DNA of 64,000 nucleotides from Mycobacteroides chelonae (GTDB lineage Bacteria; Actinomycetota; Actinomycetes; Mycobacteriales; Mycobacteriaceae): contig NZ_CP050145.1 in assembly GCF_016767715.1 (NCBI RefSeq), positions 4,526,001-4,590,000 on the forward strand, given 5' to 3'. The translations under genes and the position numbers were made by a program. Of this stretch, positions 34,537 to 55,763 are shown in pieces. The notes under the pieces were generated by a model that saw only the letters and a list, made by a program, of their open reading frames with translations, was not told where the DNA came from and did not search any database. The stretch's first letter is position 1. Every line of letters starts with the position of its first letter.

Positions 34537-34558
34537 GATAGAGTGCAATACTCGACGC

Positions 34559-34855: not shown

Positions 34856-34859
34856 CGGT

Positions 34860-35327: not shown

Positions 35328-35344
35328 GGTCACCGAGCCATTGT

Positions 35345-35407
35345 AACTAACGCTTGCGTTATTCAGCTAGTCCCGCTAGCATCCTAACTAACGCAATCGT
35401 TAGTTAG
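35345..35407. promoter_or_regulatory. Two operators between HxlR and SDR genes
   Basis: Site A: TAACTAACGC-TT-GCGTTATT (35344-35363, perfect core AACGC-TT-GCGTT). Site B: CTAACTAACG (35384-35393) - CAAT - CGTTAGTTAG (35398-35407), a perfect 10-bp inverted repeat just before the SDR ribosome site. The shared CTAACGC/GCGTTAG word marks them as sites for the same regulator. Confidence 0.7.
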
Positions 35408-35416
35408 GAGATAGGG

Positions 35417-36112: not shown

Positions 36113-36139
36113 CCTCGCATCCACCAGGAGAAGATCGAC

Positions 36140-37068
<929 letters not shown>

Positions 37069-37087
37069 TCACCTCTAGTCTTGCTTC

Positions 37088-37885: not shown

Positions 37886-37942
37886 TCCCCCTTTAAGAGG
37901 TTGCCTACTCGGCCCTTAGCCCCGTGATCTTTGCTTCGCTCG

Positions 37943-38263
37943 TTACGCCGCAGGCACACAGTCACGGAGCTCGGGCGCCATGCCGTACGGGCCCCACATC
38001 TGACGCTCCGCATCCTGCCGGGCTTCAGGCTCGTTACTTCCGTGACCGATCACAGAGCCAGCCCACTGCTTCATGCCGAAACCCATACCCGGCATGCTTC
38101 CCGGGCCAAACCCAGGTGGGCCGAAATTGTTGTTGGCATAGACCTGACACTGAACGGCAACCGGGCCCTCCCCCGGCACCGCCGAAGCAGCGGGTGCGGC
38201 GAACACCGAAACCAGCACCGCCGCCACACCAACCCCTGCGACTACCGAACAAATCGTCCGCAT
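37943..38263 (-). CDS. Small secreted protein of unknown function
   Basis: A 106-aa protein with a signal peptide (about residues 1-27, ending APAASA-V), then a Gly/Pro/Met-rich centre (FGPPGFGPGSMPGMGFGM) and two cysteines that could form a disulfide. The ATG at 38263 has GGAGGAGGAG upstream, among the strongest ribosome sites here. Mycobacteria carry several such short exported proteins; no family is named. Confidence 0.8.
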   Translation of the reverse strand: MRTICSVVAGVGVAAVLVSVFAAPAASAVPGEGPVAVQCQVYANNNFGPPGFGPGSMPGMGFGMKQWAGSVIGHGSNEPEARQDAERQMWGPYGMAPELRDCVPAA

Positions 38264-38351
38264 AGCTCCTCCTCCTCGGTATCTGGCAATAGTTTGCCAC
38301 AACTCGAGTATTTCGAGAACCAAATGTTCGCGGAGAGAAATCAGAAGATCG

Positions 38352-39314: not shown

Positions 39315-39426
39315 GCCCCCCCATGGACCCCCGTCCGGTCTCGCGGGGGCGACCGTCTTGACCGCCATGAGGAAATATCACAAGTACGATGACCACACGG
39401 CCGGGCGAGAGGGACGCACAGGGGAA

Positions 39427-41190
39427 ATGACGTCATCGGAGATGCCGCCGTCGGGTCCAGATAGCCAGCAACCTGGAGACCTACCGCCGGGGACGGCCAT
39501 ATCCGGATACCAGGTCGAGCGCGTCCTCGGTCGCGGCGGCATGGGCACCGTGTACCTGGCCGCCAATCCGAATTTGCAACGTCCTGAGGCTCTGAAGATC
39601 CTCAACGCCCAGGCCTCACGCGACCCTGACTTCCGGGCACGATTCATGCGCGAGGCCTCGCTGGCCGCGTCTCTGGATCACCCCAACATCGTCACGGTGC
39701 ACAACCGAGGCGAAACGCCCGAGGGCGATCTGTGGATTGCCATGCAATACGTCCAGGGCAGCGATGCGCACTCGGAGTCGAGGAACGGGCGCATGTCGCT
39801 CACCCGCGCCATTCACATCATCAGCGAGGTAGCCAAGGCGCTCGACTATCTGCATGCCCGCGGTCTGGTACACCGCGATGTGAAGCCGGCCAACATCCTG
39901 CTGTCCGAAGGCGATCGACGAATCATGTTAGGCGACTTCGGTGTCACTCGCGCGCTCGACGACAGCAACTCGGTTACCTCCGCGGGGAACGTGACCGCCA
40001 CGATCGGGTACGCGGCACCGGAGGTGCTGTCCGGCGCCGTGGTCGACGGCCGCGCCGATGTGTATGCCTTGGGCTGCACGCTCTTTCGGATGCTCACGGG
40101 TCAACCACCATTTGGCTCCGGGGGCTCGCTACCCGCGGTTATCAATGCACACCTTTCGGCGCCGCCGCCCCGCATCTCCCAGTTCGCCTCTGTGCCCGAG
40201 TCAATGGACGCATTGATCGCCAAGGCAATGGCCAAGAATCCCGCCGATCGGTATCAAAGTGCCGGGGAGTTTGCCCAGGCCGCGCAACAGATTCTGGCCG
40301 ACCCGCATCAGCACCGGCAGACTGTGACCCAACCCGTATCCACCGTGAGGCCGCAGCCCACACCCCATCTCGTACAGAACCTCGCCACACCGACAGACTC
40401 CGCGCGAACATTGGTCAAGCACAGGCGCATCGTGGCGATTGTCGGCGCCATCGCCCTGCTGGCCGCATCGACGGTGGTCGCCGTCGTGATCTGGCCCCGC
40501 CATGGTGTGGGTAAACCCGCTCCCTCGTCTGGCGCGACCGCCTCGGCGGTGAAGCCGGGTGAATCGCTTGCCGGACAGCCCAACACCGTCCTAGAAACCT
40601 TGCTGCCCGGCCAGTTCGACTATCCAGACGGATGGGAGAAAAACCCCTCGCCCACATTCAGGTCGGGCGAGTTCAACCCGGCCGTGGCGCCCGGTGCGGC
40701 CACCATCATTGGTGGGACCCCAGTGGGCTGCAACACCATTGATCCCGTGTGGGCGCTGCGCGCCCAGGGCCGTGAGGCACCGACGTTGTACCTGCGTGAT
40801 CGCAAGAAGCCCGAGAGGGAGATCCTGATCCGGGTTGTCCCGGCATCCGATGCCCTCTCCCCGGACGGTGCCTCCGACGCATTGAAGAGGTGCGACGCGG
40901 TCGCGTACACGATCCCCGGCGCGAGTACCACGTGGCGATGCTCGTTCGAGTTCGATGAGCCTGCTCCGGTCCAGAATGGCCAAAAAGAGCTCACCGCAAC
41001 GGAATCGTGCTTCATGTTTCCATCCGGAGCGAACAGCATTCGGCAGCACGTGTCATTCAATGTGGTTCGCGGCCTGCTCGTGTACATCCTGGCCAGCGGT
41101 GCGTCCAACCGAAACGACGCGGCAGGCTCTCTCAGCGCAACCGCCCTGAACTTCGCGACCGCCATGAAGATCCTGCGTTACGGCCGCTAG
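39427..41190 (+). CDS. Transmembrane Ser/Thr protein kinase (Pkn family)
   Basis: A 587-aa eukaryotic-type kinase. The glycine loop is GRGGMGTVYLA (35-45) with ATP-lysine Lys57. The catalytic loop is HRDVKPANILL (His149-Asp151) and DFG is at 170-172. A transmembrane helix at about 336-357 leads to an extracellular sensor domain of roughly 225 residues with four or more cysteines (CNTID, RCDAV, WRCSFEF, SCFMF). The sensor ligand is unknown. ATG 39427 has AGGGGAA just before it. The stop shares CTAG with the convergent gene. Confidence 0.92.
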   Translation: MTSSEMPPSGPDSQQPGDLPPGTAISGYQVERVLGRGGMGTVYLAANPNLQRPEALKILNAQASRDPDFRARFMREASLAASLDHPNIVTVHNRGETPEGDLWIAMQYVQGSDAHSESRNGRMSLTRAIHIISEVAKALDYLHARGLVHRDVKPANILLSEGDRRIMLGDFGVTRALDDSNSVTSAGNVTATIGYAAPEVLSGAVVDGRADVYALGCTLFRMLTGQPPFGSGGSLPAVINAHLSAPPPRISQFASVPESMDALIAKAMAKNPADRYQSAGEFAQAAQQILADPHQHRQTVTQPVSTVRPQPTPHLVQNLATPTDSARTLVKHRRIVAIVGAIALLAASTVVAVVIWPRHGVGKPAPSSGATASAVKPGESLAGQPNTVLETLLPGQFDYPDGWEKNPSPTFRSGEFNPAVAPGAATIIGGTPVGCNTIDPVWALRAQGREAPTLYLRDRKKPEREILIRVVPASDALSPDGASDALKRCDAVAYTIPGASTTWRCSFEFDEPAPVQNGQKELTATESCFMFPSGANSIRQHVSFNVVRGLLVYILASGASNRNDAAGSLSATALNFATAMKILRYGR

Positions 41191-41756
41191 TTCTTGGGAG
41201 ACCAGGGGGTGAGCCAATCCGTGGGCTCCCAGCCCTCGGCGGCCGCCAGCAGCTCGTACATCGTTGCGCCATCGACGGACTCACGGATGATGTCGGCGTG
41301 GCCGGCATGCCGGGCCAACTCCTCGATGAGGTGCAGGGCCACCCATCGCACACTCCATGCGTCGACGTCCTTGGGAAACCACGGCGCCGACGGAACGGGC
41401 ACCGGAGTCTCCAGCCCCTTGTCCTTGATCGCGGCAAGTGTTGCTTCGCACTGCGCGGAGTACGCCGCCAGCACCCCGGCGAGCGTCTCGTCCGCACGCA
41501 AGATGAATTCGTCATCGGCTCGGTGGCGGTCAGGCCCCGGATCGGGCGCGGCGACAATCTTGTCTGTCCAGCCCGCCTGCATATTGGTGACGTGCTTGAT
41601 GAGCCCACCGACCGACAAGGTGCCCGCCGTCGGGGTGAGACGAGCCTGATCGTCGGTCAGGCCGAAGGCCACGATCCGAAAAGCATCTTGCTGCGCGGCG
41701 ATGTACTCGATCAGGCCGTCCAACTCGGTGGAAACGGGCGGAGGCATGGCAGGCAT
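41187..41756 (-). CDS. DinB-fold protein (mycothiol-transferase-like)
   Basis: A 189-aa four-helix-bundle protein of the DinB/DUF664 family. Putative metal histidines lie in GLIKHVTNMQAGW (near 50) and HLIEELARHAGHADIIRE (near 140-157). Actinobacterial members are mycothiol- or bacillithiol-dependent transferases. ATG 41756 is chosen because GAGAGGAA precedes it. Confidence 0.82.
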   Translation of the reverse strand: MPAMPPPVSTELDGLIEYIAAQQDAFRIVAFGLTDDQARLTPTAGTLSVGGLIKHVTNMQAGWTDKIVAAPDPGPDRHRADDEFILRADETLAGVLAAYSAQCEATLAAIKDKGLETPVPVPSAPWFPKDVDAWSVRWVALHLIEELARHAGHADIIRESVDGATMYELLAAAEGWEPTDWLTPWSPKN

Positions 41757-41912
41757 ACGGGGGTTCCTCTCGGGGCTGTGAGCTGGCACGCATAAGCCAA
41801 CACCACCGGTCTGACATCACTCCCCGAAACCGCGAAAATGCCTTCTGACCTGCGATATCGAATTGTGACAACAACCACAAGTCCAGGACTTTTGTCATAC
41901 GCTACTCAGCGG

Positions 41913-41940
41913 TATAGTTCAGTTGTTACCGGTGGGTAAC
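41913..41940 (+). promoter_or_regulatory. fadE5 promoter -10 and TTAC-N6-GTAA operator
   Basis: TATAGT (41913-41918) is a good mycobacterial -10. It is followed by GTTACC-GGTG-GGTAAC (41925-41940), a perfect inverted repeat containing TTAC-N6-GTAA at the expected transcription start. The same TTAC-N6-GTAA pattern recurs between fadA2 and fabG4. Confidence 0.6.
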
Positions 41941-42013
41941 TTAATCGGAAGTAAGAACCCAACCGAATATCAGCACAGCCCCACGAGACCACGGTCAGAC
42001 CCAAGAGAAAGCA

Positions 42014-43858
42014 ATGACGCACATGGGCCACTACAAGTCGAACGTCCGCGACCTGGAGTTCAACCTCTTCGAGCTCTTCAACATCCAGCAGGTTTTCGGT
42101 GGTGAGGAATTCCCCGAGCTGGACGAAGAGACCGCTCGCACGTTCCTTTCCGAAATGCGCACCCTCGCCGAGGGGCCACTGGCCGATTCCTTCGCTGAAG
42201 GCGACCGCAACCCGCCGGTCTTCGATCCGGAGACCCACTCGGTGGCCATCCCCGAGGCTTTCAAGAAGTCCGTCAAGGCAGTCACCGACGCCGGGTGGGA
42301 TCGTCTCGGCCTGATCGAAGAACTCGGCGGCAGCCCGGTTCCGCGCTCGCTGATGTGGGCCATTCAGGAGATGATCCTCGGCGCCAACCCCGCAGTCTGG
42401 ATGTACAGCGGCGGTGCCGGTTTCGCGCAGATCTTCTACAACGTCGCCACCGATGAGCAGAAGAAGTGGGCCGAATTCGTCGCCGAGCGCGGCTGGGGCG
42501 CCACCATGGTGCTCACCGAGCCCGACGCCGGTTCGGACGTGGGCGCCGGTCGCACCAAGGCCGTCAAGCAGGAGGACGGTTCCTGGCACATCGACGGTGT
42601 GAAGCGCTTCATCACCTCGGCTGACTCCGATGACATGTTCGAGAACATCATGCATCTGGTGCTGGCCCGCCCCGAGGGCGCCGGCCCCGGCACCAAGGGT
42701 CTGTCGCTGTTCTTCGTGCCCAAGTTCATCCCCAACTTCGAGACCGGCGAGCCGGGCGAGCGCAACGGCGTCTTCGTCACCAACGTCGAGCACAAGATGG
42801 GCCTGAAGGTTTCGGCCACCTGTGAGCTGAGCCTGGGCCAGCACGGCGTTCCTGCCAAGGGCTGGCTGGTCGGCGAGGTGCACAACGGCATCGCCCAGAT
42901 GTTCGACGTCATCGAGCAGGCCCGCATGATGGTGGGCACCAAGGCCATCGCGACTCTGTCGACCGGTTACCTGAACGCGCTCGAGTACGCCAAGACCCGC
43001 GTGCAGGGTGCGGACATGACGCAGCTGACCGACAAGACCGCTCCCCGCGTCACCATCACGCACCACCCGGATGTGCGTCGCTCGCTGATGACTCAGAAGG
43101 CTTACGCCGAGGGCCTGCGCGCGCTGTACCTCTACGCCACTACCTTCCAGGACGCCGTGACCGCCAAGGCCATCAACGGCGTGGAGGCCGAGGAAGCGGT
43201 ACGGCTCAACGACCTGCTGCTGCCGATCATCAAGGGTGTGGGCTCCGAGCGTGCCTACGAGAAGCTCACCGAAAGCCTGCAGACCTTCGGTGGATCCGGC
43301 TTCCTGCAGGACTACCCGATCGAGCAGTACATCCGTGACGCCAAGATCGACTCGCTCTACGAGGGCACCACGGCGATCCAGGCCCAGGACTTCTTCTTCC
43401 GCAAGATCGTCAAGGACCAGGGCAAGTCGCTGGCCTTCGTCTCCGGTCAGATCGAAGAGTTCGTCAAGAGCGAGACCGGCAACGGCCGCCTGAAGGCCGA
43501 GCGTGCGCTGCTTGCAACGGCTTTGGAAGACGTGCAGGGCATGGCAGCGACCATGACCGCCAACCTGATGGCAGCCCAGCAGGAGATCACCCAGGTCTAC
43601 AAGGTCGGAACGGCCTCCGTGCGCTTCCTGATGAGCGTCGGCGACCTGCTGATCGGCTGGCTGCTGCAGCGTCAGGCCGCCGTGGCGATCGAGGCTCTGG
43701 ACGCGGGCGCCACCGGCGCCGAGAAGTCCTTCTACGAGGGCAAGATCGCGGTTGCCTCGTTCTTCGCCAAGAACATGCTGCCGCAGCTGACCTCGACCCG
43801 GGCCATCCTGGAGAACGTCGACAACGACATCATGGAGCTCGACGAAGCCGCCTTCTGA
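42014..43858 (+). CDS. fadE5: Acyl-CoA dehydrogenase FadE5
   Basis: A 614-aa FAD enzyme catalysing the first step of fatty-acyl-CoA beta-oxidation. It belongs to the large, C-terminally extended type of M. tuberculosis FadE5 (Rv0244c, about 611 aa). Landmarks are [16 protein letters not shown] (near 170), the catalytic Glu in [16 protein letters not shown] (near 455) and [18 protein letters not shown] (near 425). A 156-bp leader holds a promoter and an operator. A strong hairpin terminator follows. Here it is separated from fadA2 by about 12.7 kb. Confidence 0.94.
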
Positions 43859-43869
43859 TCCCACTCAGC

Positions 43870-43905
43870 CGAAGCCCCCGTTTCCCCTTGGAGACGGGGG
43901 CTTCG
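43870..43905 (+). terminator. fadE5 terminator
   Basis: Perfect 12-bp stem, CGAAGCCCCCGT (43870-43881) with ACGGGGGCTTCG (43894-43905). There is no long T-run, as is common in mycobacterial terminators. Confidence 0.7.
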
Positions 43906-43907
43906 CG

Positions 43908-43957
43908 CATCTCGAGATGCCGAGAGTTACGGCCTGAGCTCTCACTGATTGGCCAAT
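43908..43957. promoter_or_regulatory. Two palindromes upstream of the alpha-oxoamine synthase gene
   Basis: CATCTCGAGATG (43908-43919) and ATTGGCCAAT (43948-43957) are perfect palindromes in the 135-bp gap after the fadE5 terminator. The second is the better placed to be an operator for the following gene cluster. No adjacent regulator gene is seen. Confidence 0.35.
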
Positions 43958-44040
43958 ACAGATTCTTTGGCCCATCCATCTGAACCACGCACAGCTACGA
44001 ATCGTTAGTAGAGGTGTGCCTGCAACGGCGCCGAGCATTC

Positions 44041-45324
44041 ATGGCTACAGGCCAGGATTGGACGGAGATGGTTCAGAGCGAAAGCGCGACGGAGTATGCC
44101 GAAACCGGCGACATCGCAAAAGACGTTGGGCAGCGGATAGCCATGGTCCGCCATTTCGCATCCACCGGACAGCTTCCTTTCTTTCAGCAGATTGACCCCG
44201 GCGTTCCACCGAGGGTCGACGTTCGGGGCCACGAGTGCGTGCTACTGGGCTCGAACTCCTACATTGGCCTCTCGAGCCACCCCAGCGTGATCGCCGCAGC
44301 TGTCACTGCGACACAGAACTTCGGCACCGGAACCACCGGCAGCCGATTACTCAACGGCACCTATCCCGTGCATGTCGCTCTCGAACAACAGCTCGCGATG
44401 TGGCTCGGCCACGAGGACGCGGTGGTGTTCACCACCGGCTATCAAACCAATGTCGGTGCGATTCAAGGACTTCTCGGCCCCGATTGTCTCGCCGTTGTGG
44501 ATTCCTACGCACACGCTTCGATCCGTGATGGGGTGCGGCTCAGCCAGGCGGTAGAGGCCAAATTCGCCCACAACGACGTCGCATCCCTGGCTGCCGCCCT
44601 GCACAGTCACGCCGAGACACCATTCCGGCGCAAACTGGTGCTTGTTGACTCGCTGTACTCCATGGAGGGCTCCACCGCCCCGCTGGAACAGATCGTTGCG
44701 GTCTGCAAGGCGGCCGGTGCTTTGCTCATGGTGGACGAGGCGCACGGGATCGGCGTGTTCGGCCCCACAGGTGCGGGCCTGGCGGAACGCAACGGCGTCG
44801 CACAAGACGTCGACATCCTGATGGGTTCGTTATCGAAGGCCATTGGCGGGCTTGGCGGATTTATCGCAAGCTCGCAGGACATTGTCGACGAGATCCGGCT
44901 CAGCGCACGATCCTTCTGGTTCAGCACCTCCGGCACGCCGGCGTCCATGGCAGCCGCGACCGCGGCGATCGAGGTCATCCGCGGGGAAGAGGGGAGGGAA
45001 CGTCGTGGAAGGCTCGAGCGCAACGCCCGGCTCATGCGTCGGTCGCTCGAACCCCTCAATGTCGTCTTGCACCGCCCAGACGAACTCAGCCCCGACTGGT
45101 CGCCTATCATTCCCATCCGATTGTTCGACGAGCTGCGGACCGCCCTGAGTTGGAACAAGCTGAGAGACGCGGGAGTATTCGTCACCCCGGCCATCTATCC
45201 TGCAGTGCCACTTGGTAAACCGATTCTGCGCGTGTGTATGACCTCGGAGCTGAGCGAAGAAGAAGTCATCTGGTGTGCAGAGGTGCTTACCAAAGAGCTC
45301 TCGTGGGCTTTGGCTGCTGCATGA
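44041..45324 (+). CDS. Alpha-oxoamine synthase, serine palmitoyltransferase-like
   Basis: PLP enzyme of 427 aa that condenses an amino acid with an acyl thioester and loses CO2, giving an amino ketone. Motifs: FGTGTTGSRLLNGT (94-107), DSYAHASIRDG (154-164), VDEAHGIGVFGPTGAG (231-246) and PLP Lys266 in GSLSKAIGG. The glycine-rich GTGTTGSRLLNGT segment is closer to bacterial serine palmitoyltransferases of the Bacteroides type than to BioF or KBL. No biotin gene is nearby. ATG 44041 is chosen; GTG 44014 would add nine residues. It overlaps the next gene in ATGA. The acyl and amino substrates are unknown. Confidence 0.82.
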   Translation: MATGQDWTEMVQSESATEYAETGDIAKDVGQRIAMVRHFASTGQLPFFQQIDPGVPPRVDVRGHECVLLGSNSYIGLSSHPSVIAAAVTATQNFGTGTTGSRLLNGTYPVHVALEQQLAMWLGHEDAVVFTTGYQTNVGAIQGLLGPDCLAVVDSYAHASIRDGVRLSQAVEAKFAHNDVASLAAALHSHAETPFRRKLVLVDSLYSMEGSTAPLEQIVAVCKAAGALLMVDEAHGIGVFGPTGAGLAERNGVAQDVDILMGSLSKAIGGLGGFIASSQDIVDEIRLSARSFWFSTSGTPASMAAATAAIEVIRGEEGRERRGRLERNARLMRRSLEPLNVVLHRPDELSPDWSPIIPIRLFDELRTALSWNKLRDAGVFVTPAIYPAVPLGKPILRVCMTSELSEEEVIWCAEVLTKELSWALAAA

Positions 45325-46280
45325 GCGCAGACTTCCGCCTCGCCATCACAGGCGCAACGGGAGATTTCGGCAGGGCCATCCTCACCTGGGCACTGCGCAA
45401 CGAAGACATCGCTGAGGTGACGGCCTTGGGCCGACGACAGACGGGCCTGAAACACCCAAAGCTGCGCGAGATGCATCTGGATCTGAGCGGCCAGATTGTC
45501 CTCGATCCGATCGCCGGCTACGACGCACTCGTCCACCTCGCATATTGCGTCGAAGAGCCTCGGGACAAGCGCACGGCCTATCAGGTGAATGTGACGGGCA
45601 CCCGGACACTGCTCGCCCAAGCGAATCGAGTAGGCATCGGCCAACTCATCCTGACCTCAAGCGCCAATGCGCTGGGCGTCACGGCCTGCGGCACCGGCAC
45701 ACAGCTCCCAGAGCAGAGCTATCCATCCGGAGACAGCGACCCCCAGCATTACTACTTTTTTCATAAAGCACTCATGGAGCACCTGGCGAACTGGCACTGG
45801 GCGAACGCCAGCGACGGAGACACAAGGCTAGCCGTCGTCCGGCCCTCTTACGTAGTAGGCGAGCACTTCGCCAACTCGGGCCTCAAGACACTCCTCGCTA
45901 ACCTGGTGCTCTACCCAGAGCCGGCACGCTCCTTCTACCAATTCCTTTGGGATACAGATCTAGTGGACGCCTACGCCACCATCCTCAAACACGGATTGAC
46001 GGGCATATACAACGTCGCCCCAGCGGACTGCACGAGTGTCACAGAGATCTGTTCCATGAGCAGGGCGCGGCTGATCTCTGGCCCATTGCCTCTCTTGAAG
46101 ATTGGCGCAGACCTGATGTTCCGGTTGCGTCTTGCTCCGTTCTCCGGTCACTGGGTGACGCTGGGCGACCCGTTACTCGACTCCTGCCTATTGCAATCGA
46201 CCACGGACTGGCGACCTACCATGACCTCCGCCGAGGCACTGAACCGGTATATCTCTGTATCTCGTTCGCCTACAAAGTAA
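45321..46280 (+). CDS. NAD-dependent epimerase-type reductase (possible keto-sphinganine reductase analogue)
   Basis: Extended SDR of 319 aa. The cofactor loop is ITGATGDFGRA (near 8-18), with a catalytic Ser in TSSANALG (near 115) and YFFHK as the YxxxK pair (near 149-153). It is translationally coupled to the oxoamine synthase. In Caulobacter the 3-ketosphinganine reductase CerR is likewise an epimerase-annotated extended SDR beside serine palmitoyltransferase, so ketone reduction of the condensation product is the best guess. Sugar epimerisation cannot be excluded. Confidence 0.75.
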   Translation: MSADFRLAITGATGDFGRAILTWALRNEDIAEVTALGRRQTGLKHPKLREMHLDLSGQIVLDPIAGYDALVHLAYCVEEPRDKRTAYQVNVTGTRTLLAQANRVGIGQLILTSSANALGVTACGTGTQLPEQSYPSGDSDPQHYYFFHKALMEHLANWHWANASDGDTRLAVVRPSYVVGEHFANSGLKTLLANLVLYPEPARSFYQFLWDTDLVDAYATILKHGLTGIYNVAPADCTSVTEICSMSRARLISGPLPLLKIGADLMFRLRLAPFSGHWVTLGDPLLDSCLLQSTTDWRPTMTSAEALNRYISVSRSPTK

Positions 46281-46311
46281 TTCACACCCAATCAACCAAG
46301 AGGATGTCAGC

Positions 46312-47448
46312 ATGGACCGCACTGCACTCGAATCGCGACTGTCTCATGTCACTGCCGTCCGCAGGCATCTCCCGGAACTGGCGGACAAGCTGGAGTCGCT
46401 TGGTCTCATGACCGCCGAAGAGCCAGGAACGAACGTCGTCGAGATCTGGAAGACACACGACGGACCTCGGTTGACCGCCCCCAAGGACCTCGGCGGCCTC
46501 GGTGCGACCTGTGTGGAAACACTTGAGCTGCAACGAGGTATCGGTTACCTCAGCCCGTCGCTCGCCGCCGCGACCACCATGCACTATCTCTCCGTCGCCG
46601 GCCTGGCCGACTTCGCCACGACAACCGATGAGGCGACCGTGGGTCTAATCAAGTCGCTAATCGAGAACCGGACCGTGTTCGCCTCCGGTTTCTCGGAAGG
46701 CACTATCGCGGGCAGCGTGTTCCGTCCGACAATGGAAGCCGCACCGGCCGACGGCGGCTACGCCGTCACCGGACAGAAGAAGCCGTGCAGCCTAGCCGAC
46801 AGCATGGATTGCATCATGGCAAGCGTGCTTCTTAATGACACCGGGCAGCGGGCGATCACGCTCATTTGGAACGGCAGCCCTGGGCTCAGCGTCGCACCAC
46901 TGTGGACGAGCTCGCCGCTATCGGCAGCACAAACTCACGCGGTGATCTTCGAGGACGTCTTCGTCCCCGACGAACTGATGATGGTCAGCGATGTGGAAGA
47001 TCCGGACGGCCGCAACGAGAAGTCGGGCTACGTCCTGTTCGGTCTCATCATCACCGCGGGCTATATCGGGGCCGCGACGCGCCTTGCGCTCAAACTCGCC
47101 GACCGCAGCGACTTCACCGAGGCCGATTTCGTCGAGCTGTTCTCGCCGATCGAAGGAGTCTGGCGCGCACTGCGCATGGTTGGTGAACGCTACGACGCCG
47201 GAGACCGAAGCGACGCGTTGTTCGCTGACCTGTTGTGGATCCGCCTGGGTCTGCGCGACCACCTTCAGCCGAGTGTGGCCCGCATCGTCTCGAGGATGGG
47301 CGGCGTCGCCTTCGCCACCGATCCCGAGATCGCCTACCTCGCCTCGTGTATCTCGGCCTACTCGTTCCACCCGCCGACAATGCGCGAGTCTGGTGCGTTC
47401 CTACTTGACCACGAACTGCGCGGCGAGATCAGCCTCACCGCCGAATAG
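46312..47448 (+). CDS. Acyl-CoA dehydrogenase-like protein
   Basis: A 378-aa protein with the acyl-CoA dehydrogenase layout: helical N-terminus, beta domain (FASGFSEGTIAGSVFRPTM, near 122) and helical C-terminus (MGGVAFATDPEIAYLASCI, near 324). The usual catalytic Glu motif is not obvious, so it may act as a dehydrogenase on an ACP-bound or amino-lipid intermediate, or as an FMN-type oxidase. It follows the epimerase-like gene by 31 bp and ends convergent with the MmpL gene. Confidence 0.72.
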   Translation: MDRTALESRLSHVTAVRRHLPELADKLESLGLMTAEEPGTNVVEIWKTHDGPRLTAPKDLGGLGATCVETLELQRGIGYLSPSLAAATTMHYLSVAGLADFATTTDEATVGLIKSLIENRTVFASGFSEGTIAGSVFRPTMEAAPADGGYAVTGQKKPCSLADSMDCIMASVLLNDTGQRAITLIWNGSPGLSVAPLWTSSPLSAAQTHAVIFEDVFVPDELMMVSDVEDPDGRNEKSGYVLFGLIITAGYIGAATRLALKLADRSDFTEADFVELFSPIEGVWRALRMVGERYDAGDRSDALFADLLWIRLGLRDHLQPSVARIVSRMGGVAFATDPEIAYLASCISAYSFHPPTMRESGAFLLDHELRGEISLTAE

Positions 47449-47489
47449 AGCCGCTTCTCGACTAGATCCGTCTCACCTCTAGCCGCGTC

Positions 47490-49691
47490 TCAACCCTCTC
47501 TAAGGCCCACCTTGGCATGGAGTCTCACCAGCGACGCAGGAGCCCACCAATTCCATCTGCCTGCCAACTTCATAACCGCCGGCACTAACACCATGCGGAC
47601 GAGCGTCGCGTCTACGACAACCGCCACTGCCAAGCCCACTCCAATCATTCGCATGAAGGACACTTGACCGCTACTCAGCCCCACGAAGACAATCACCATC
47701 AGGGTGGCGGCCGCGGTGATCACTCGTCCAGCGCCCGCTATGCCCAGGGCTACTGCCTCGGCGTTGTCCTCAGTGCGCTGCGGCGACGCGAGCCAGTGTT
47801 CGCGGATACGAGACAACAGGAACACCTCGTAGTCCATGGACAAACCGAATGCTGTCGCGAACAAGAACACCAACACATCCGCTACCAGCGTGCCGGTCGC
47901 CGTGGTTCCGAGTCCCCCAAGATGCCCTTCCTGGAACACCCACACCAACGCACCGAGCGTGGCCGACAACGACAACGTATTGAGCACCAGAGCCTTCAGC
48001 GGAAGCAGCAGACTGCCTGTGAGCAGGAAGATCAGTAGGAAAGTCGTTGCCGCAACGAGGATCAGCACCACCGGCAAGAGACGGACAATCTCGTCCACCG
48101 AATCCTGGTTCAGCTGTTGAGGACCCGTGAACAGGGCCTCGGCACCACGCGGTACGGGAACCGTCCTCAGCCGGTCGAGTTCCTGTCGGGACTTCGAGTC
48201 GGACGACGGATCTTCGATCACCACCGAAAGCCATACGCTGCCGTCCTTGAACCCGGTCGGGGACTGCGGCGGACCGGCAGCATGCCCCTGGACGTATGAG
48301 CCACCGGGAGCCGAGACCGCAACGACACCAGATACTTTCGATAGCTCGGCGGCATAACCGGCGATCTCGTCAGCGGCAAGGGTCCGCGCGTCCGGGATCA
48401 CAACCGACGTGGCCATCGCGTCGTTGCGAGGGAACTCTGTGCGCAGTAGATCACCAACCTGTCGCGACTGAGCACTCGTCGGAAGCACCCGATCGTCGGG
48501 CAGCCCGAAACGCGCGCGAACGAACGGCGCCCCGAGAACAAGCAACACCACCACGACCACCAGAGCGCACGGAATCGCATGACGCATCGCGAAAGAGGCA
48601 GTCGAATACAGGAGACTTTGCTTGACTTCCTTAGTTTCTACCTTGTGCCGCACGAGTTTACGTATATTCAGCGATTCAATTCGGTCACCGAGGAGCTTGA
48701 TCAACGTCGGTGCCACGACAACGGCGTAGAGGCCGGCAAGGGCAACCACACCGCAGCCCGCATACGCCATCGAGCGCAGGAAGTACATCGGGAAGACCGC
48801 CAACGCGCCCACCGCGAGGAAAACCGTGCAGGCCGAGAACAGGATCGTGCGCCCGGCCGTGACCACCGCGTTGCGTAAGGCTTCATCGCGATCCCCGAGC
48901 CGGATGTGTTCCTCCCGATACCGGCTCACGAGCAGCAACGTGTAGTCGATCGCGAGGGCCAAACCCATGGCCGTGGTGAGTTCGAGCGCAAAGACGGATA
49001 CATCAGCGAAAATCGTTATACCCCTGAGCAATCCAAAGGTGCTTAGGATTGCCATGACACCCACAACGAGCGGTAGCAGCGCGGCGAACAAACCACCGAA
49101 CACCCAGATGAGTGCGAGGAACGACAATGGCAAGGCAATGGCCTCGGCCGTGACCAGGTCCTTCTCTGACTGTTCGTTGATCTCCGAGGCCACCATCGCC
49201 GTGCCGCCGGCCAACACCGTAAGACCGTCGCGCTCACCGACAACCTCGTGGGCCACCGCATCTGCATACTTTGGCGCGCTGTTCTCCCCGCCAAGGACCT
49301 GCGCGACTACCAGCGCCGTCTTTCGGTCCCTACTGATCAAGCTCTCGGCCTGCGGCGAGGTGTCCCAGGGAGATGAGACCGCGGCGATATGCGGGGAATC
49401 TCGCACGGTGCGCACCAGGTTCGCACCCGCCGCTGCGACCGCCGGGTCCCGGACATCACCGGGGACACGGACCACGAGCATCAGATCCATATCGCCTTGA
49501 CCGAACTTTTCGGTGAGAAGCCTCATTCCGCGCGCAGAGGAAGAATGCGGGTCTTGGAAGCCGGCGGTACCCAGATGTTCGGCAACGTTGGCGCCGAACC
49601 CCGCGGCGAGCACGGTCAACAAGACAACGCCGAGTAGCACCCGCTTGGGCGCTCTGATGATCACGCGGGATAGCGCGGTAAGCACACGCAA
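47490..49691 (-). CDS. MmpL-family RND lipid transporter
   Basis: A 733-aa inner-membrane transporter with 12 helices in two halves, each with a large periplasmic loop after the first helix. The family motif ALELTTAMGLALAIDYTLLLVSRYREE contains the Asp-Tyr proton-relay pair, repeated in the second half as AFGLSMDYEVFLLSRIREHW. It is MmpL3/MmpL11-like in size, without an MmpS partner. It is convergent with the oxoamine-synthase cluster and could export its product. Start TTG 49691; GTG 49685 is equally possible. Confidence 0.9.
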   Translation of the reverse strand: MRVLTALSRVIIRAPKRVLLGVVLLTVLAAGFGANVAEHLGTAGFQDPHSSSARGMRLLTEKFGQGDMDLMLVVRVPGDVRDPAVAAAGANLVRTVRDSPHIAAVSSPWDTSPQAESLISRDRKTALVVAQVLGGENSAPKYADAVAHEVVGERDGLTVLAGGTAMVASEINEQSEKDLVTAEAIALPLSFLALIWVFGGLFAALLPLVVGVMAILSTFGLLRGITIFADVSVFALELTTAMGLALAIDYTLLLVSRYREEHIRLGDRDEALRNAVVTAGRTILFSACTVFLAVGALAVFPMYFLRSMAYAGCGVVALAGLYAVVVAPTLIKLLGDRIESLNIRKLVRHKVETKEVKQSLLYSTASFAMRHAIPCALVVVVVLLVLGAPFVRARFGLPDDRVLPTSAQSRQVGDLLRTEFPRNDAMATSVVIPDARTLAADEIAGYAAELSKVSGVVAVSAPGGSYVQGHAAGPPQSPTGFKDGSVWLSVVIEDPSSDSKSRQELDRLRTVPVPRGAEALFTGPQQLNQDSVDEIVRLLPVVLILVAATTFLLIFLLTGSLLLPLKALVLNTLSLSATLGALVWVFQEGHLGGLGTTATGTLVADVLVFLFATAFGLSMDYEVFLLSRIREHWLASPQRTEDNAEAVALGIAGAGRVITAAATLMVIVFVGLSSGQVSFMRMIGVGLAVAVVVDATLVRMVLVPAVMKLAGRWNWWAPASLVRLHAKVGLREG

Positions 49692-49831
49692 GATCGTATC
49701 CGTCGGCGCCGCGCGGATTAGCTCCTCAGAAAATCAGGTCCTCGCATTGCCGTCGGCTCAGGAAGCGCCGGAAGCAGGGCTTCCCGCATTCCGGGGTACC
49801 GCCGTGATCAGACCCCGCCTAAGGTTGCCGT

Positions 49832-50785
49832 ATGCCTCGTTACTACCGCGACCAGCACGCGTGGAAAGACCTCCAGATGCTCCTTCCCGAGCGGCTGCGC
49901 CTGGACGAGTCGACGGCACCGCACGAGGAGTTCTGGGACTGGCGTGGCAACCAGGTGCACCTGGACCGGTACCCCAATCCCGCGGCACCGGTGAAGGTGG
50001 TGCTGCTGCACGGCGTCGGCACCAACGGCCGTCAGATGTCGCTGATCCTCGGTGCGCCGTTAGCGGGCAGGGGCTTCGAGACCATCGCGATCGACAATCT
50101 CGGCTACGGGCTCACTGATGTGGCACCGGGTTCGGTACCGGGATACGGCGACTGGGTGGACCTGGTTGTCGACTATCTGGAGTACGAACGCCGCCGCGAC
50201 GTGCGACCCATCGTGCTGTACGGGCTGAGCGCCGGCGGGATGCTCGCCTACCACGTCGCGGCCAAGGCGCCGCGTGACACGGTGCGCGGAGTCATCGGCA
50301 TGACGTTCCTGGACCAGCGAGTTCGTGAGGTGGCCGACGGCACCGCCCACGACCTGCTCACCGCACGCGTCGGGGTACCTTTTCTGCGGCTCGCCGCCAA
50401 GACACCGGCCCGGCGGGTGCGCTACCCCATGTGGCTGGCCGCGAAGATGAGCACACTGGCGAACAGCCGAGCAGCGATGAAGATCTTCATGAAGGACCGC
50501 ACGTCCGCCGCCAACTGGGTCAGCGTGAAGTTCCTGGCCGAGTACATGAGCTACGCACCCGCCGTCGAACCCGCCGATTTCGATGTCTGTCCCATCCTCC
50601 TCACCCAGCCCGACGAAGACCGATGGACCCCTTACGAATTCAGTCGGCCGGTACTGGACCCCATCACCAAGGTTCCGGTGACCGTGGTGCCGCTAGAACA
50701 GGCCGGGCACTATCCGCTGGAGGATCCTGGACTGAAGCAACTGGAGGATGCGGCGGTCGGATTCATCCGCGCCGTCGCAGGCTGA
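49832..50785 (+). CDS. Alpha/beta hydrolase
   Basis: A 317-aa alpha/beta-hydrolase. The oxyanion segment is LLHGVGTNG (near 58), with nucleophile Ser in YGLSAGGML (near 132), acid Asp in TQPDEDRW (near 256) and His in QAGHYPLE (near 291). No signal peptide is present, so it acts in the cytoplasm. Substrate unknown. Confidence 0.85.
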   Translation: MPRYYRDQHAWKDLQMLLPERLRLDESTAPHEEFWDWRGNQVHLDRYPNPAAPVKVVLLHGVGTNGRQMSLILGAPLAGRGFETIAIDNLGYGLTDVAPGSVPGYGDWVDLVVDYLEYERRRDVRPIVLYGLSAGGMLAYHVAAKAPRDTVRGVIGMTFLDQRVREVADGTAHDLLTARVGVPFLRLAAKTPARRVRYPMWLAAKMSTLANSRAAMKIFMKDRTSAANWVSVKFLAEYMSYAPAVEPADFDVCPILLTQPDEDRWTPYEFSRPVLDPITKVPVTVVPLEQAGHYPLEDPGLKQLEDAAVGFIRAVAG

Positions 50786-50818
50786 CCACTTCAGTCGATC
50801 TTCGGGCAAACTTGACGC

Positions 50819-51502
50819 ATGACCGAAGCCCGACGTGCCGTGCTGGTTCTCTCGCTGGTCGCAACCAGTCTGTTGACCTTCCTGCTCGGGGTCACCGATC
50901 CGGCGGCTCCCCTGTTCTACCCCACCCGGTTCCTCATCTGGAATCTGTTCCTGGCGTGGCTGCCCGTCTTCGCGGCACTGGCATTCTCTGCCGTCCGGCG
51001 CAAGATCTGGCTGATACCGATTGGCTTGGTGTGGCTCGCATTCTTGCCCAACGCACCGTATCTGGTCACCGATCTGGTGCACCTCATCGACGGCATCGCA
51101 TTCTGGCGTCATGTGCTGCAGTACGGCGTCGCGGCCTGGACCGGGATCATCCTCGGCGTGGTCTCACTGCGTTTGGTGCACCGGCGAATTCAGCGTGATT
51201 TCGGCATTGTCACCGGGTGGATAGTCGTCGTCGTCTCGGTCGGGCTGTGCGCGATAGGAGTCGTGATCGGCCGCTTCCAGCGCTGGAACTCCTGGGACCT
51301 GATTCACCGTCCCGGCGCGGTCGCCGCGAGCACCTTGGAATGGGTCAGCTCTCCGTTCGCGTTTGTGGCCCACACCGGTGTGGCCGTGGCGGTCGCCGCG
51401 TTCTTCGGGCTGGCCTACCTGACCGTGTGGTCGCTATCGGCTCCCGACGAGAATTCCGAAAAGGTCCGGTTGCCAACAAATGCTGCAAAGGTGCCCGTCT
51501 GA
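50819..51502 (+). CDS. DUF1361 membrane protein
   Basis: A 227-aa integral membrane protein with about six hydrophobic segments and the DUF1361 core LVWLAFLPNAPYLVTDLVHL (near 73-92). It follows the hydrolase by 33 bp and may be co-transcribed. No function is known for the family. Confidence 0.82.
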   Translation: MTEARRAVLVLSLVATSLLTFLLGVTDPAAPLFYPTRFLIWNLFLAWLPVFAALAFSAVRRKIWLIPIGLVWLAFLPNAPYLVTDLVHLIDGIAFWRHVLQYGVAAWTGIILGVVSLRLVHRRIQRDFGIVTGWIVVVVSVGLCAIGVVIGRFQRWNSWDLIHRPGAVAASTLEWVSSPFAFVAHTGVAVAVAAFFGLAYLTVWSLSAPDENSEKVRLPTNAAKVPV

Positions 51503-51527
51503 CAGCCCTTCGGCCCCGTCTCACACA

Positions 51528-51968
51528 TCACCGCGCCAATGCCCCGACGCGTTCGGCCAGCTCGGCCACGGAAAGGCGCCCATCCAATTCCACGGTGGCG
51601 CTCTGGCGCAGCAGCGGCTCCACCTCGTCGGTGTACCGGGCGATCTCGGCACGCTCGATTTCGGTTCGACCGTAGGGGTTGTCGGTACGAGAGCTCACCC
51701 GTGCGATGGCAACCTCCAACGGCACGCTGAGCAGCACCACGTGGCCGAAGCTGTCGTAGAAGTCCACCTGGTTGTCCACGGTTCCGGACACAACGACATC
51801 CGGATACCGGCTCAGCAGCGCCGCCATCCTGACAGCGTCCCAGCCGCCGTCAGACAGTGTCCAGCCGTCGTAGTCGGTGTCGACGGTCCGAAATCCGCGA
51901 CGCGCCAGCTCCGCGAGCAGCGTGCTCTTCCCTGTTCCCGACATGCCCGTCACCAACACCCGCGCCAC
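51528..51968 (-). CDS. P-loop kinase-like ATP-binding protein
   Basis: A 146-aa nucleotide-binding protein. The Walker A loop is GMSGTGKST (near 8-16), with a following D-T-D (VDTDYDGW) as in small-molecule kinases of the shikimate or adenylate kinase type. It starts at GTG 51968 with the P-loop directly after it, as usual for this fold. It is divergent from the molybdoenzyme gene 67 bp away. Substrate unknown. Confidence 0.8.
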   Translation of the reverse strand: MARVLVTGMSGTGKSTLLAELARRGFRTVDTDYDGWTLSDGGWDAVRMAALLSRYPDVVVSGTVDNQVDFYDSFGHVVLLSVPLEVAIARVSSRTDNPYGRTEIERAEIARYTDEVEPLLRQSATVELDGRLSVAELAERVGALAR

Positions 51969-52035
51969 ATCTGAACCATATGCGGTGGCGGCTCGTTGAA
52001 AGCAGGAGAAGAGTGGACCCCAAACGGAGGTGACG

Positions 52036-53529
52036 ATGGAGCAGGCAGCACGACGGATCATCGCGGGCCTTATCGCTGCGGGCGCCGCGCTGGCGGCCGG
52101 ACAACTGACCGCCGCGGCCGTCGCACCGGATTCCGCACCCTTTTTCGCGGTCGGGAACATGGTCGTCGACCACGCCCCGGCGGCCATACGCGAATGGGTG
52201 ATCGGGGTCTTCGGTACCTCCGACAAAGCCGTGTTGTTCGCGTGCCTGTCCGCGATCATCGCCCTACTCGCGGCAACCGCCGGTCTCGTGGAGCGAGAAC
52301 GACGGTATGGCTCGGCGCTTATCGCGGTGCTCGGTGTCGTCGGCGCATTGGCTGCGGTAACCCGGCCGACCGGGGCGTTCACCTGGATCTGGCCATCAGT
52401 GATCGCGGCCGTGGCCGGAGTGCTCGTGCTGCGAGCCCTGGTGGGCCGCGCCGATGGCCAGGACGCGCCCGACCGACGCAAATTCTTCGGAGCAGCAGCG
52501 GTTTTCGCCCTCGGATCAGCGGGCGCCTATTGGCTCGGCAACCGCTGGAGCAAGGGTGCCGTCGTCGCCGAGGAACGCCGCGACGCGGTACTGCCCGCAC
52601 CCGTCGCGCCCGCTCCGCCGCTGCCCGACGGCATCAACGTCAAAGGTGCGGCCCCCTACATCACCGGTAATGCGGACTTCTACCGCATCGACACGGCGCT
52701 GCGAGTGCCCCAGCTGACCACCGCCGAGTGGCAGCTCAATATTCACGGCATGGTCGACCGCCCGCGCATCCTGACGTGGTCAGATCTGCACGCCATGGCG
52801 GCAACGGAACGCGCCGTCACCTTGACCTGCGTCTCCAACGAGATCGGCGGAGATTTGATCGGCAACGCGATGTGGACCGGCTTTCCCATCAAGGCGATCT
52901 TGGAATCCGTTGGAGTCCACGGTGATGCAGACATGCTGTTGTCGAAGAGCGCCGACGGCTGGACGGCCGGCACCCCACTGGATGTACTCACCGATGGCCG
53001 TGACGCCATCTTGGCCGTTGCGATGAACGGGACACCACTTCCCGTCGAGCACGGATACCCGGTCCGGCAGGTGGTGCCCGGGCTGTACGGCTACGTGTCC
53101 GCGACCAAGTGGGTTGTCGACTGGGAGATCACCCGATTCGACACCGCACGGGCGTACTGGACCGTTCGCGGCTGGTCGGCGCGAGGCCCCATCAAGACGG
53201 GATGTCGCATCGACACGCCCCGAACGGGCGGCCGCCTGGGCACAGGTGCTCAGATCGTGGCGGGCACGGCGTGGGCCCAGCATCGGGGCATCACCAAGGT
53301 GGAAGTACAGATCGACGACGGCCCCTGGCAGCCCGCAACGCTTGCTCCCGAGTACTCGGTCGACACATGGCGGCAATGGTGGTTCGGTTGGCAGGCGACG
53401 CCGGGTGAACACATCATCACCGCACGCGCCACCGACGGCACCGGAGCGGTGCAGACCGATCAGATCGCGTCCCCCGTACCCGATGGGGCGACGGGATATC
53501 CGAAACGGCTTGTCACGGTGGCGGCCTGA
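52036..53529 (+). CDS. Membrane-bound sulfite-oxidase-family molybdoenzyme
   Basis: A 497-aa protein. The N-terminus has about four membrane helices (residues 5-140), then a twin-arginine-like DRRKFFG before a fifth helix. The molybdopterin sulfite-oxidase-like domain is at about 205-400, with the Mo-ligand Cys265 in TLTCVSNEIGG. A Mo-cofactor dimerisation domain follows (to 497; VEVQIDDGPWQPA). It probably oxidises or reduces a small substrate at the outer face and passes electrons to the membrane. ATG 52036 is preferred with GGAGG upstream; GTG 52030 is possible. Confidence 0.86.
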   Translation: MEQAARRIIAGLIAAGAALAAGQLTAAAVAPDSAPFFAVGNMVVDHAPAAIREWVIGVFGTSDKAVLFACLSAIIALLAATAGLVERERRYGSALIAVLGVVGALAAVTRPTGAFTWIWPSVIAAVAGVLVLRALVGRADGQDAPDRRKFFGAAAVFALGSAGAYWLGNRWSKGAVVAEERRDAVLPAPVAPAPPLPDGINVKGAAPYITGNADFYRIDTALRVPQLTTAEWQLNIHGMVDRPRILTWSDLHAMAATERAVTLTCVSNEIGGDLIGNAMWTGFPIKAILESVGVHGDADMLLSKSADGWTAGTPLDVLTDGRDAILAVAMNGTPLPVEHGYPVRQVVPGLYGYVSATKWVVDWEITRFDTARAYWTVRGWSARGPIKTGCRIDTPRTGGRLGTGAQIVAGTAWAQHRGITKVEVQIDDGPWQPATLAPEYSVDTWRQWWFGWQATPGEHIITARATDGTGAVQTDQIASPVPDGATGYPKRLVTVAA

Positions 53530-54660
53530 CTAGCCGAACTCCACAATGCTGCGAATATTCTTACCCTGCTTCATGTCCCGATATCCCTGAGCGATCTCGT
53601 CAAGGGCATAGGTGCGGGTCACCATCTCGTCCGTCTTGAGTTCACCGCTGGCATAGAGCGCCAGCATGGTGGGCACTGCCTCAAACGGGCTCCAGTTCCC
53701 GTAGATAACGCCCTTGATCGTCTTCTGCATCAACGTGACCATGCTCAGATCCAGTGACACATCCTCGGGACGGAAGGCGCCCATGCTGGTCATCGCCACC
53801 GTGCCGCCCTTACGGATGGAGTCCACAGCGGCCGTGAGATCGCCCGGCTCCATCCGGCCCACCGTGATCATGGTGGCGTCCGCGCCCTGTCCGTTGGTGT
53901 AGGAGCGGGCCCGATCGGCGGCTTCCTCCATCGAGGCGAACACCTCAGTCGCGCCGAATGTTTTTGCCGCCTCACGCTTGTACGCCACCGGGTCGACCAG
54001 CAGAACATTCGCCGCTCCTGAACGCGCGGCCCCCTGGACCGCGGCGGCACCGACTCCACCCAGGCCCATGACGATCACCGTCTGCCCGGGCTTGACCGCG
54101 GCGGCGTTGACGGCGGTACCCCATCCGGTGCCCATCGCACATCCCAACAGACACAACCGATTCAACGGAAGCTCTTTGGGAACCTTGTACGCGGACTGAA
54201 CCGATACGGTGGTGTACTCGCTGAACGCCGAGAGCCCCAGCTGCTGCCCACACGGCTGCCCGTCGAGACGCAGCCGGTAGCTGGTGGGGTCGTCGAATCT
54301 GGATCCGGTGAGCGCATAGGCACCGGCATCGCAGAGCTGCTGCATGCCGCGCGAACACCACAGGCAGCGGCCGCAGGCGGGCAGAAACGTCAGCACCACA
54401 TGGTCTCCGACGGCGAATTGTGTTGTGCCATCGCCAACCTTCTCCACAACGCCGGCGCCCTCGTGACCCCCACACATCGGCAGCATCTCCACCGGGAAGT
54501 CTCCGGTAGCGATGTGATCGTCGGAGTGACACAGACCGACCGCGGCCATCCGGACCATGATCTCGCCGGGTCGCGGATCTTCGACCTCTACCACGCAGGG
54601 CTCGAATTCCCCTGGCACGCTGCGTATCACCGAAGCGTGAGAACGACGATAGGACGTCAT
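53530..54660 (-). CDS. Zinc alcohol dehydrogenase, NDMA-dependent-like
   Basis: Medium-chain dehydrogenase of 376 aa. The catalytic zinc segment is GLCHSDDHIATGDFP (near 42) with GGHEGAGVV (near 64). The structural zinc loop is CGRCLWCSRGMQQLC (near 95-109). MGLGGVGAAAVQG (near 197) binds NAD. The long insert and CGQQLGLSAFSEYTTV resemble actinobacterial NDMA-dependent alcohol dehydrogenases with tightly bound cofactor. It overlaps the upstream oxygenase gene in ATGA. Confidence 0.87.
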   Translation of the reverse strand: MTSYRRSHASVIRSVPGEFEPCVVEVEDPRPGEIMVRMAAVGLCHSDDHIATGDFPVEMLPMCGGHEGAGVVEKVGDGTTQFAVGDHVVLTFLPACGRCLWCSRGMQQLCDAGAYALTGSRFDDPTSYRLRLDGQPCGQQLGLSAFSEYTTVSVQSAYKVPKELPLNRLCLLGCAMGTGWGTAVNAAAVKPGQTVIVMGLGGVGAAAVQGAARSGAANVLLVDPVAYKREAAKTFGATEVFASMEEAADRARSYTNGQGADATMITVGRMEPGDLTAAVDSIRKGGTVAMTSMGAFRPEDVSLDLSMVTLMQKTIKGVIYGNWSPFEAVPTMLALYASGELKTDEMVTRTYALDEIAQGYRDMKQGKNIRSIVEFG

Positions 54661-55685: not shown

Positions 55686-55763
55686 AACGAAACCTCCTTG
55701 TGTCGTTACCCGAGAAGCTAACGTGAACACCAGGTCGCATATAAGTCTCGTCTGGGGGCCGTC

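Follow-up and report, generated by a model that had tools for sequence, protein, structure and literature searches.

We analyzed a 64,000-nucleotide stretch of the Mycobacteroides chelonae genome (hereafter "the window"; G000:C1:4526001-4590000, where G000 is the organism's own genome, 5.06 Mb on one contig). The window carries a cassette of four adjoining genes, which encode an α-oxoamine synthase (AOS), an extended short-chain dehydrogenase/reductase (SDR), a 378-amino acid (aa) flavoenzyme with the acyl-CoA dehydrogenase (ACAD) fold and, on the opposite strand, a transporter of the MmpL family. On balance, we judge it marginally probable that this four-gene cassette makes and exports an N-oxygenated amino-lipid, and within this model the predicted N-hydroxylation step has the strongest new evidence behind it. 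An initial annotation of the sequence had proposed a sphingoid-type cassette, in which a serine palmitoyltransferase (SPT)-like synthase would be translationally coupled to a reductase of the kind found in SPT clusters, with the third protein acting as a desaturase and the MmpL protein as the exporter.

Organization, conservation and mobility of the cassette

All four genes were found by tblastn, nearly full length and in the same arrangement, at all 10 of the other loci compared (L030-L039, i.e., the eight non-own genomes of an SDR search of the genus, plus L031 and L033, by coordinates), and dN/dS ratios (against four orthologs) ranged from 0.03 to 0.35 across the four genes. The proposed cassette is thus present and is not a chance grouping; its four genes are under purifying selection as a conserved unit. 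The SDR search (1e-40; 396 genomes of the genus) gave nine genomes with a match, i.e., the M. chelonae genome itself, another at 92% identity and a further seven in the range of 70-73%. An AOS search (1e-60) matched 11 of 148 genomes, of which only the M. chelonae genome and one other (78%) reached ortholog level, the remaining matches being at 36-41%. A scan of named genome contigs with the SDR yielded six loci, four from Mycobacterium/Mycolicibacterium, one from Aldersonia and one titled Williamsia faeni, the last carrying the flag UNVERIFIED_CONTAM.

The AOS and SDR genes overlap by 4 nucleotides (nt) (ATGA, 45321-45324), which bears out the proposed coupling. The SDR gene is followed after 31 nt by the flavoenzyme gene, which is convergent with the MmpL gene, 41 nt separating their stops. 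The AOS most likely starts at 44068 rather than 44041, as its ortholog at L030 (98.6% identical, 418 aa) has an in-frame stop immediately 5' of that ATG and as the remaining orthologs begin a few residues from there at most. The pyridoxal phosphate (PLP) lysine, which the initial annotation had picked out correctly but numbered Lys266, is therefore K257 of 418 aa; both its context, GSLSKAIGG, and the GTGTTGSRLLNGT motif were found in the protein. A scan for promoters and terminators gave nothing beyond the level of shuffled sequences. The features are as follows.

43898..43910, + strand: left 13-bp repeat, GGGCTTCGCGCAT, from sequence reading, with one mismatch to the right copy
43911..49776, no strand: insertion of 5,866 bp holding the entire cassette, from the empty-site alignment to G050 (L185)
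44068..45324, + strand: AOS, SPT-like, 418 aa, PLP Lys257 (NCBIfam, tree and xNG motif; start from orthologs)
45321..46280, + strand: predicted NAD(P)-dependent ketone reductase of the extended-SDR type, 319 aa, with YFFHK and a conserved S (Pfam Epimerase, 2.7e-16; conservation; ATGA overlap)
46312..47448, + strand: ACAD-fold flavoenzyme, 378 aa, putative member of the VlmH-type amine N-hydroxylase family, with FHPP and KxPCS (motifs, profiles and neighbourhoods)
47490..49691, - strand: predicted MmpL-family lipid exporter, 733 aa, convergent (Pfam MMPL, 2.7e-71, 240.7 bits; DY pairs; paralog comparison)
49777..49789, + strand: right 13-bp repeat, GGGCTTCCCGCAT, from sequence reading

Among the 10 cassette loci, the genes that flank the cassette in the window were shared with the closest relative (L030) only; the other nine showed family-level matches at most outside the cassette (e.g., a kinase at 37-38%). 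A stretch (L185) from the relative G050, which lacks the cassette, aligns to window positions 31355-43910 (85.5%) and 49777-56293 (82.3%), and since these two matches abut, sharing 13 bases at L185 positions 12512-12524, the cassette represents a clean insertion of 5,866 bp. The two 13-bp copies that bound it differ at one base. Behind the upstream FadE-like gene lies a GC-rich, hairpin-like repeat (seen by eye), whose 3' arm holds the left 13-bp copy and the insertion point; this repeat was absent from the terminator scan listing. GC content was 61.7% in positions 44041-49691 vs 64.0% in the rest of the window. NCBIfam and Pfam identified no integrase or transposase among the genes of the insertion, which the four cassette genes fill, and no tRNA was found in positions 40000-53000. 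Overall, the cassette is a mobile unit, best explained as horizontally acquired.

The third gene encodes a candidate amine N-hydroxylase

A profile built from the 11 cassette flavoenzymes was searched across the order (1e-10) and matched 45 places in 42 of 397 genomes; we compared neighbourhoods at the 20 top-scoring places (L100-L119) among the 44 outside the M. chelonae genome. The six nearest, from other genera of the family (L100-L105), all had an AOS close by and, within the same stretch, this kind of SDR, about 8 kb away in L105. The more distant 14 (L106-L119) carried a class III aminotransferase in 13, a polyketide-cyclase-like gene in 13 and a thioester-reductase or aldehyde-dehydrogenase match in 13, the exception being L114, a stretch that ends at a contig end. 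An amine-making PLP gene was hence located near the flavoenzyme in 19 of the 20 loci (AOS in 6/6 near loci, class III aminotransferase in 13/14 far loci), and it is a predicted amine-making enzyme that is the constant neighbour of this protein.

In aliphatic azoxy pathways, VlmH/VlmR are described as N-hydroxylating an amine, VlmA (PF09924) as adding a tRNA-borne aminoacyl group, and VlmO and VlmB as finishing the product (PMC9379638, PMC11705231). On the Streptomyces lavendulae plasmid pSA3239, a homolog of the third protein (34% identity over 364 aa) is surrounded by genes annotated as flavin reductase, seryl-tRNA ligase (serS), DUF2156 protein and "VlmB-like protein". In the plasmid relatives from Streptomyces NBC_00887 and NBC_00726, DUF2156, flavin reductase and VlmB-like genes likewise lie near the homolog. 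Across the 20 flavoenzyme loci, VlmA-like genes occurred in 8, VlmB-like genes in 9 and a flavin reductase in 5. As D51, H82, H110 and D114 are reported to be essential in VlmO (PMC11705231), open reading frames (ORFs) of 120-320 aa were scanned for the exact D-31-H-28-H-4-D spacing; matching ORFs were present in 9/20 loci and in 3/5 plasmid loci, and in 10 of these 12 the pattern is placed precisely at residue 51. When applied to the window and to the 10 cassette loci, the scan returned a single match, an ORF in L034 that bears no resemblance by eye and was judged spurious.

The two types of neighbourhood meet in L105 (G1031:C190, 1-15961). Here an AOS, an SDR and the flavoenzyme are found together with an MmpL, a P450, a PPDK-like protein, a VlmO-pattern protein and a PF09924 (VlmA-type) protein, the last being 43% identical to its DUF2156 counterpart from S. 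lavendulae. In the flavoenzyme tree (with a long-branch warning), the L105 protein falls between the half that is linked to AOS genes and the half that is linked to azoxy genes. Such a pattern would be expected had an N-hydroxylase of the azoxy type become coupled anew to an AOS, with VlmA and VlmO lost later, although the tree does not root the direction of this change. L105 may represent a candidate pathway to azoxy or hydrazine amino-lipids.

At L111 (9307-11715), a single 802-aa frame fuses the flavoenzyme (residues 1-379) to a VlmB-like part (491-800). This fusion adjoins a polyketide synthase, an AMP-ligase, a thioester reductase, an aminotransferase and a convergent MmpL. Flavoenzyme clusters at L112, L115 and L175 (a plasmid of Nostoc sp. 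C052) include a nitric oxide synthase oxygenase together with a class III aminotransferase, and the L175 stretch also has a DevBCA-type exporter.

Within the protein itself, no Pfam ACAD domain exceeded its cut-off. In ordinary ACADs the catalytic Glu lies in a YEGT-type C-terminal motif, and we take HPP, aligned there by eye, to occupy the same place. HPP and KxPCS were found in all 28 family members counted, and FHPP in 27 of them (the 11 cassettes were entered as one, and three rows below 150 bits, L097-L099, were left out); by this placement the YEGT-type Glu was present in none of the 28. A wide-family profile searched against the Protein Data Bank (PDB) matched the flavin monooxygenase DszC first (2.9e-20), and also DnmZ and 3m9v, which we take to be the N-oxygenase KijD3. 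A PHROGs scan gave a best E value of 0.32. The length of 378 aa equals that reported for VlmH (PMC7347517). The plain desaturase of the initial annotation was demoted on the neighbourhood evidence, the family occurring in azoxy clusters beside VlmA-, VlmB- and VlmO-like genes; in addition, HPP stands where the YEGT-type motif would be. The third protein is best read as a putative VlmH-type amine N-hydroxylase.

The α-oxoamine synthase

NCBIfam models scored the AOS at 338 bits for SPT (NF047599; cut-off 500) and 334 bits for BioF (cut-off 426); two other SPT models gave 326 of 640 bits needed (NF047600) and 271 of 670 (NF047603), and an autoinducer synthase model also matched. As 5/5 SPT references exceeded one SPT cut-off and the AOS exceeded none, the AOS lies outside the curated SPT families; 10/10 related AOS proteins, scanned likewise, were also below the SPT cut-offs. 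In a tree of 67 rows (five duplicates removed first; long-branch warnings on several reference rows), the 11 cassette AOS proteins formed one clade (100/100), which grew to 12 rows with L105 (98/93), to 20 rows on adding L100-L104 and L137-L139, the latter three from other mycobacteria (100/99), and to a starred 34-row actinobacterial clade (100/100) consisting of the cassettes, L100-L105 and 17 further actinobacterial rows. This clade joined the SPT references at 76/68 only, with long-branch warnings on some references, and the BioF, KBL and HemA references formed a separate starred clade (98/98) on the opposite side. The GSR-x-x-N-G (xNG) motif was present in 11/11 cassettes, 5/5 SPT references and 0/6 BioF/KBL/HemA references, as well as in L100-L105 and L120-L136; it was lost in L137-L139, and N-G was present in two unclassified rows, L015 and L148. 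At 1e-5, the cassette AOS profile found one other gene only in the M. chelonae genome, the BioF gene of a bioA-bioF-bioD operon.

These data weakly place the AOS on the SPT side of the tree. The comparison called for by the initial annotation, against BioF, KBL, HemA and SPT, thereby sets the protein apart from the first three, and the SPT affinity that it had proposed stands as far as the tree side (with its weak join) and the xNG motif go; by the curated cut-offs, the assignment to SPT proper does not. A BioF, KBL or HemA identity was rejected on the tree, the motif and the separate bioA-bioF-bioD operon, and biotin metabolism, which that operon serves elsewhere in the genome, does not explain the gene. 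At L137-L139 (G109, G131 and G112), the divergent AOS adjoins a gene of a ligase family that is common to all three (AMP-binding in L137), followed in two of the three by an ORF of 82-83 aa, which in L139 had no Pfam match.

The reductase and ceramide-type partners

The SDR matched its counterparts from the Rahnella and Sphingomonas SPT clusters with E values of 0.012 and 3e-7, over the N-terminal 100-116 aa or so. The proposed kinship with SPT-cluster reductases thus does not extend beyond the N-terminal Rossmann part of the two SDRs compared, and a CerR-type ortholog is not supported by these comparisons. In L100, L101, L103 and L104 the SDR frame continues for about 200 aa, and this C-terminal extra resembles an alpha/beta-hydrolase by eye.

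The Rahnella reference cluster comprises SPT, acyl carrier protein (ACP), FAAL and SDR genes with an N-acyltransferase. In a phylum-wide search of 396 genomes, L120-L135 were the 16 top-ranking places after the M. chelonae genome and G669, and 15 of them had a GNAT homologous to this N-acyltransferase in the fetched stretch, pointing to probable amino-lipid chemistry at these outer AOS loci. Genes of this type (aca) are reported to take part in the synthesis of dihydroceramide (PMC9386255). No aca-type N-acyltransferase was found in the 10 cassette loci, in agreement with the earlier view that neither a dedicated ACP nor a ceramide-type N-acyltransferase accompanies the cassette. Genome-wide, an aca homolog occurred in 2/10 cassette genomes tested, in 2/6 genomes of L100-L105 and in 2/60 genus genomes, one of which was G050. 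Since only 2/10 cassette genomes have a homolog, and cassette-less G050 has one too, the cassette has no regular aca partner, and ceramide N-acylation by the distant homolog of the M. chelonae genome (31%; G000:C1:1755777-1756892, L152) was rejected as a regular part of the system. This GNAT has an extended SDR directly downstream and does not follow the cassette. At the actinobacterial AOS loci L120-L132, an aca-type N-acyltransferase was present in 12 of 13, and many of these stretches share a large protein of one family, with a Pfam MMPL match in L121.

The MmpL transporter

Pfam identified MMPL domains in the fourth protein, and D249-Y250 and D620-Y621, which we take to be the DY pairs of the proton relay, were invariant in 11/11. 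The protein is 48% identical to its nearest paralog in the M. chelonae genome, 42-43% to the MmpLs near L112 and L115, 38-39% to those near L114 and L111, 32% to the own-genome protein that we take for MmpL3, and 29-30% to the MmpLs near L105, L106 and L116. An MmpL was present in the stretch at 7/20 flavoenzyme loci, the one at L111 also being convergent with the flavoenzyme gene. MmpL proteins are known mainly as lipid exporters. The MMPL domains and the conservation at 10/10 loci uphold the view that the MmpL is a partner in a dedicated amino-lipid module, in which it would act as the exporter.

Proposed pathway and alternative explanations

What we observe directly is the unit itself, with its conservation and mobility, and the family placements of its proteins; from these we infer substrates, chain length and product. 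The AOS, judging from its family, would join an acyl-CoA, probably a long-chain one, to one of the small amino acids Ser, Ala and Gly, giving a 2-amino-3-ketone, and the coupled SDR would reduce the ketone to a sphingoid-like 2-amino-3-alcohol. The flavoenzyme would, before or after this reduction, hydroxylate the amine to a hydroxylamine (or further to an oxime or nitroso compound), presumably drawing its reduced flavin from a reductase that is encoded elsewhere than in the cassette, and the MmpL would carry the product across the membrane. More broadly, and with somewhat less assurance than for the cassette alone, we suggest as a tentative possibility that mycobacteria and their kin make an exported N-hydroxy, oxime or nitroso sphingoid-type lipid by a new route that joins an SPT-like synthase to a VlmH-type enzyme, and that related genomes extend it to azoxy or hydrazine lipids.

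Several results weigh against the proposed pathway. The AOS is under every curated NCBIfam cut-off, SPT ones included. The kinship of the third protein with VlmH runs through azoxy-cluster relatives and not through the VlmH sequence, ordinary ACADs match the wide-family profile from 3.1e-13, the cassette-only profile gave weak PDB matches led by an "acyl-CoA dehydrogenase type 2" (3.7e-8), with cyclohexanecarboxyl-CoA dehydrogenase (1.4e-5) ahead of DszC (2.9e-5), and a structure predicted from 7 close sequences reached a pLDDT of 37.6. VlmA, VlmB, VlmO and flavin reductase are all missing from the cassette, where the azoxy route is incomplete, and from 5/6 of the near AOS-linked loci; a flavin-reductase-like match (31%) lies about 7 kb off, near 37038, and is shared among the cassette loci with L030 only. 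An ACAD-type enzyme in a lipid-amine pathway, TamT of tambjamine synthesis, has moreover been proposed to desaturate (PMC6667630). This tambjamine precedent, with a dehydrogenase beside a reductase and an aminotransferase, together with the PDB matches to ACADs before DszC and a below cut-off match to Pfam Acyl-CoA_dh_M (26 vs 33.3 bits), favours sphingoid-base synthesis with a desaturating ACAD-like protein, in which, e.g., a 2-enoyl-CoA would pass through the AOS to a 4-ene base, the SDR would reduce and the MmpL export. We nevertheless consider desaturation rather unlikely, given HPP instead of the YEGT-type Glu in 28/28 proteins counted and the azoxy-cluster neighbours VlmA, VlmB and VlmO, one VlmB-like protein being fused to the flavoenzyme.

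N-hydroxylation would also fit an AOS that uses a short acyl-CoA, the product being no lipid but a small N-hydroxy aminoketone or amino alcohol, i.e., a signal or antibiotic. We regard this as unlikely: the MmpL, of a family known mainly for lipid export, is kept at 10/10 loci, and the outer AOS clade is accompanied by a sphingolipid-type N-acyltransferase, although AOS enzymes include autoinducer synthases, an NCBIfam model of which matched, and VlmH itself acts on isobutylamine (PMC7347517). It is improbable that the cassette supplies a complete azoxy or hydrazine pathway whose VlmA and VlmO functions are encoded elsewhere in the genome. L105 does unite AOS, hydroxylase, VlmA and VlmO, but in the M. 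chelonae genome its VlmA found nothing better than matches at 26% (53.8 bits) and 25% (32.9 bits), and across all 10 cassette genomes tested, the nine others included, no match exceeded 53.8 bits (the genome of L031 was outside this set, and VlmO and VlmB were not searched genome-wide). Finally, the BioF profile scores the AOS nearly as high as the SPT profile does, as would suit an ordinary gene of the BioF/KBL type that lies next to lipid genes unrelated to it; the separate bioA-bioF-bioD operon, the tree and the conserved four-gene unit make this highly improbable. The production and export of an N-oxygenated amino-lipid thus remains the reading that we prefer.

Significance and comparison with known systems

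According to a 2026 review, sphingolipids have never been described in mycobacteria (PMC12910592), which agrees with the statement of the initial annotation that mycobacteria are not known to make sphingoid bases. Among the papers searched that concern SPT, sphingosine or ceramide in connection with mycobacteria, Actinobacteria or MmpL, no report of such a cassette was found, and the main text of neither the azodyrecin paper nor the N-N review mentions mycobacteria, palmitoyltransferase or oxoamine. If the proposed pathway is correct, it would add to the lipids of mycobacteria a sphingoid-like class that is also N-oxygenated, and would link sphingolipid-type condensation and azoxy N-hydroxylation in one 5.9-kb mobile unit, small enough for gene-by-gene testing. 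The published genome-mining rule for azoxy clusters is based on VlmA/VlmH pairs (PMC9379638), and such mining would miss the cassette because VlmA is absent from it.

The aliphatic azoxy pathways (valanimycin VlmH/VlmA/VlmO/VlmB and azodyrecin ady; PMC9379638, PMC11705231), as described, resemble the cassette in placing a member of the ACAD-fold amine N-hydroxylase family beside an amine-making PLP enzyme. Their amine, however, comes from a decarboxylase or transaminase, whereas that of the cassette would come from an AOS, and the cassette is without VlmA, VlmO, VlmB and VlmR. With the described bacterial sphingolipid genes (SPT, AcpR, AasR, epi and aca; PMC9386255), it shares an AOS of the SPT side adjoining an extended SDR, but it lacks a linked ACP, acyl-ACP synthetase and N-acyltransferase and has a flavoenzyme and an MmpL in their place. 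Rv0032 (BioF2) of M. tuberculosis is likewise an SPT-like mycobacterial AOS not serving biotin synthesis; by its published description, it differs in an extra N-terminal domain and in being confined to the tuberculosis complex (PMC12910592). The tambjamine branch (TamA/TamT/TamH) also combines a dehydrogenase-like enzyme with lipid-amine formation, but is described as making its amine by thioester reduction and transamination, with TamT as the proposed desaturase (PMC6667630, PMC9594044).

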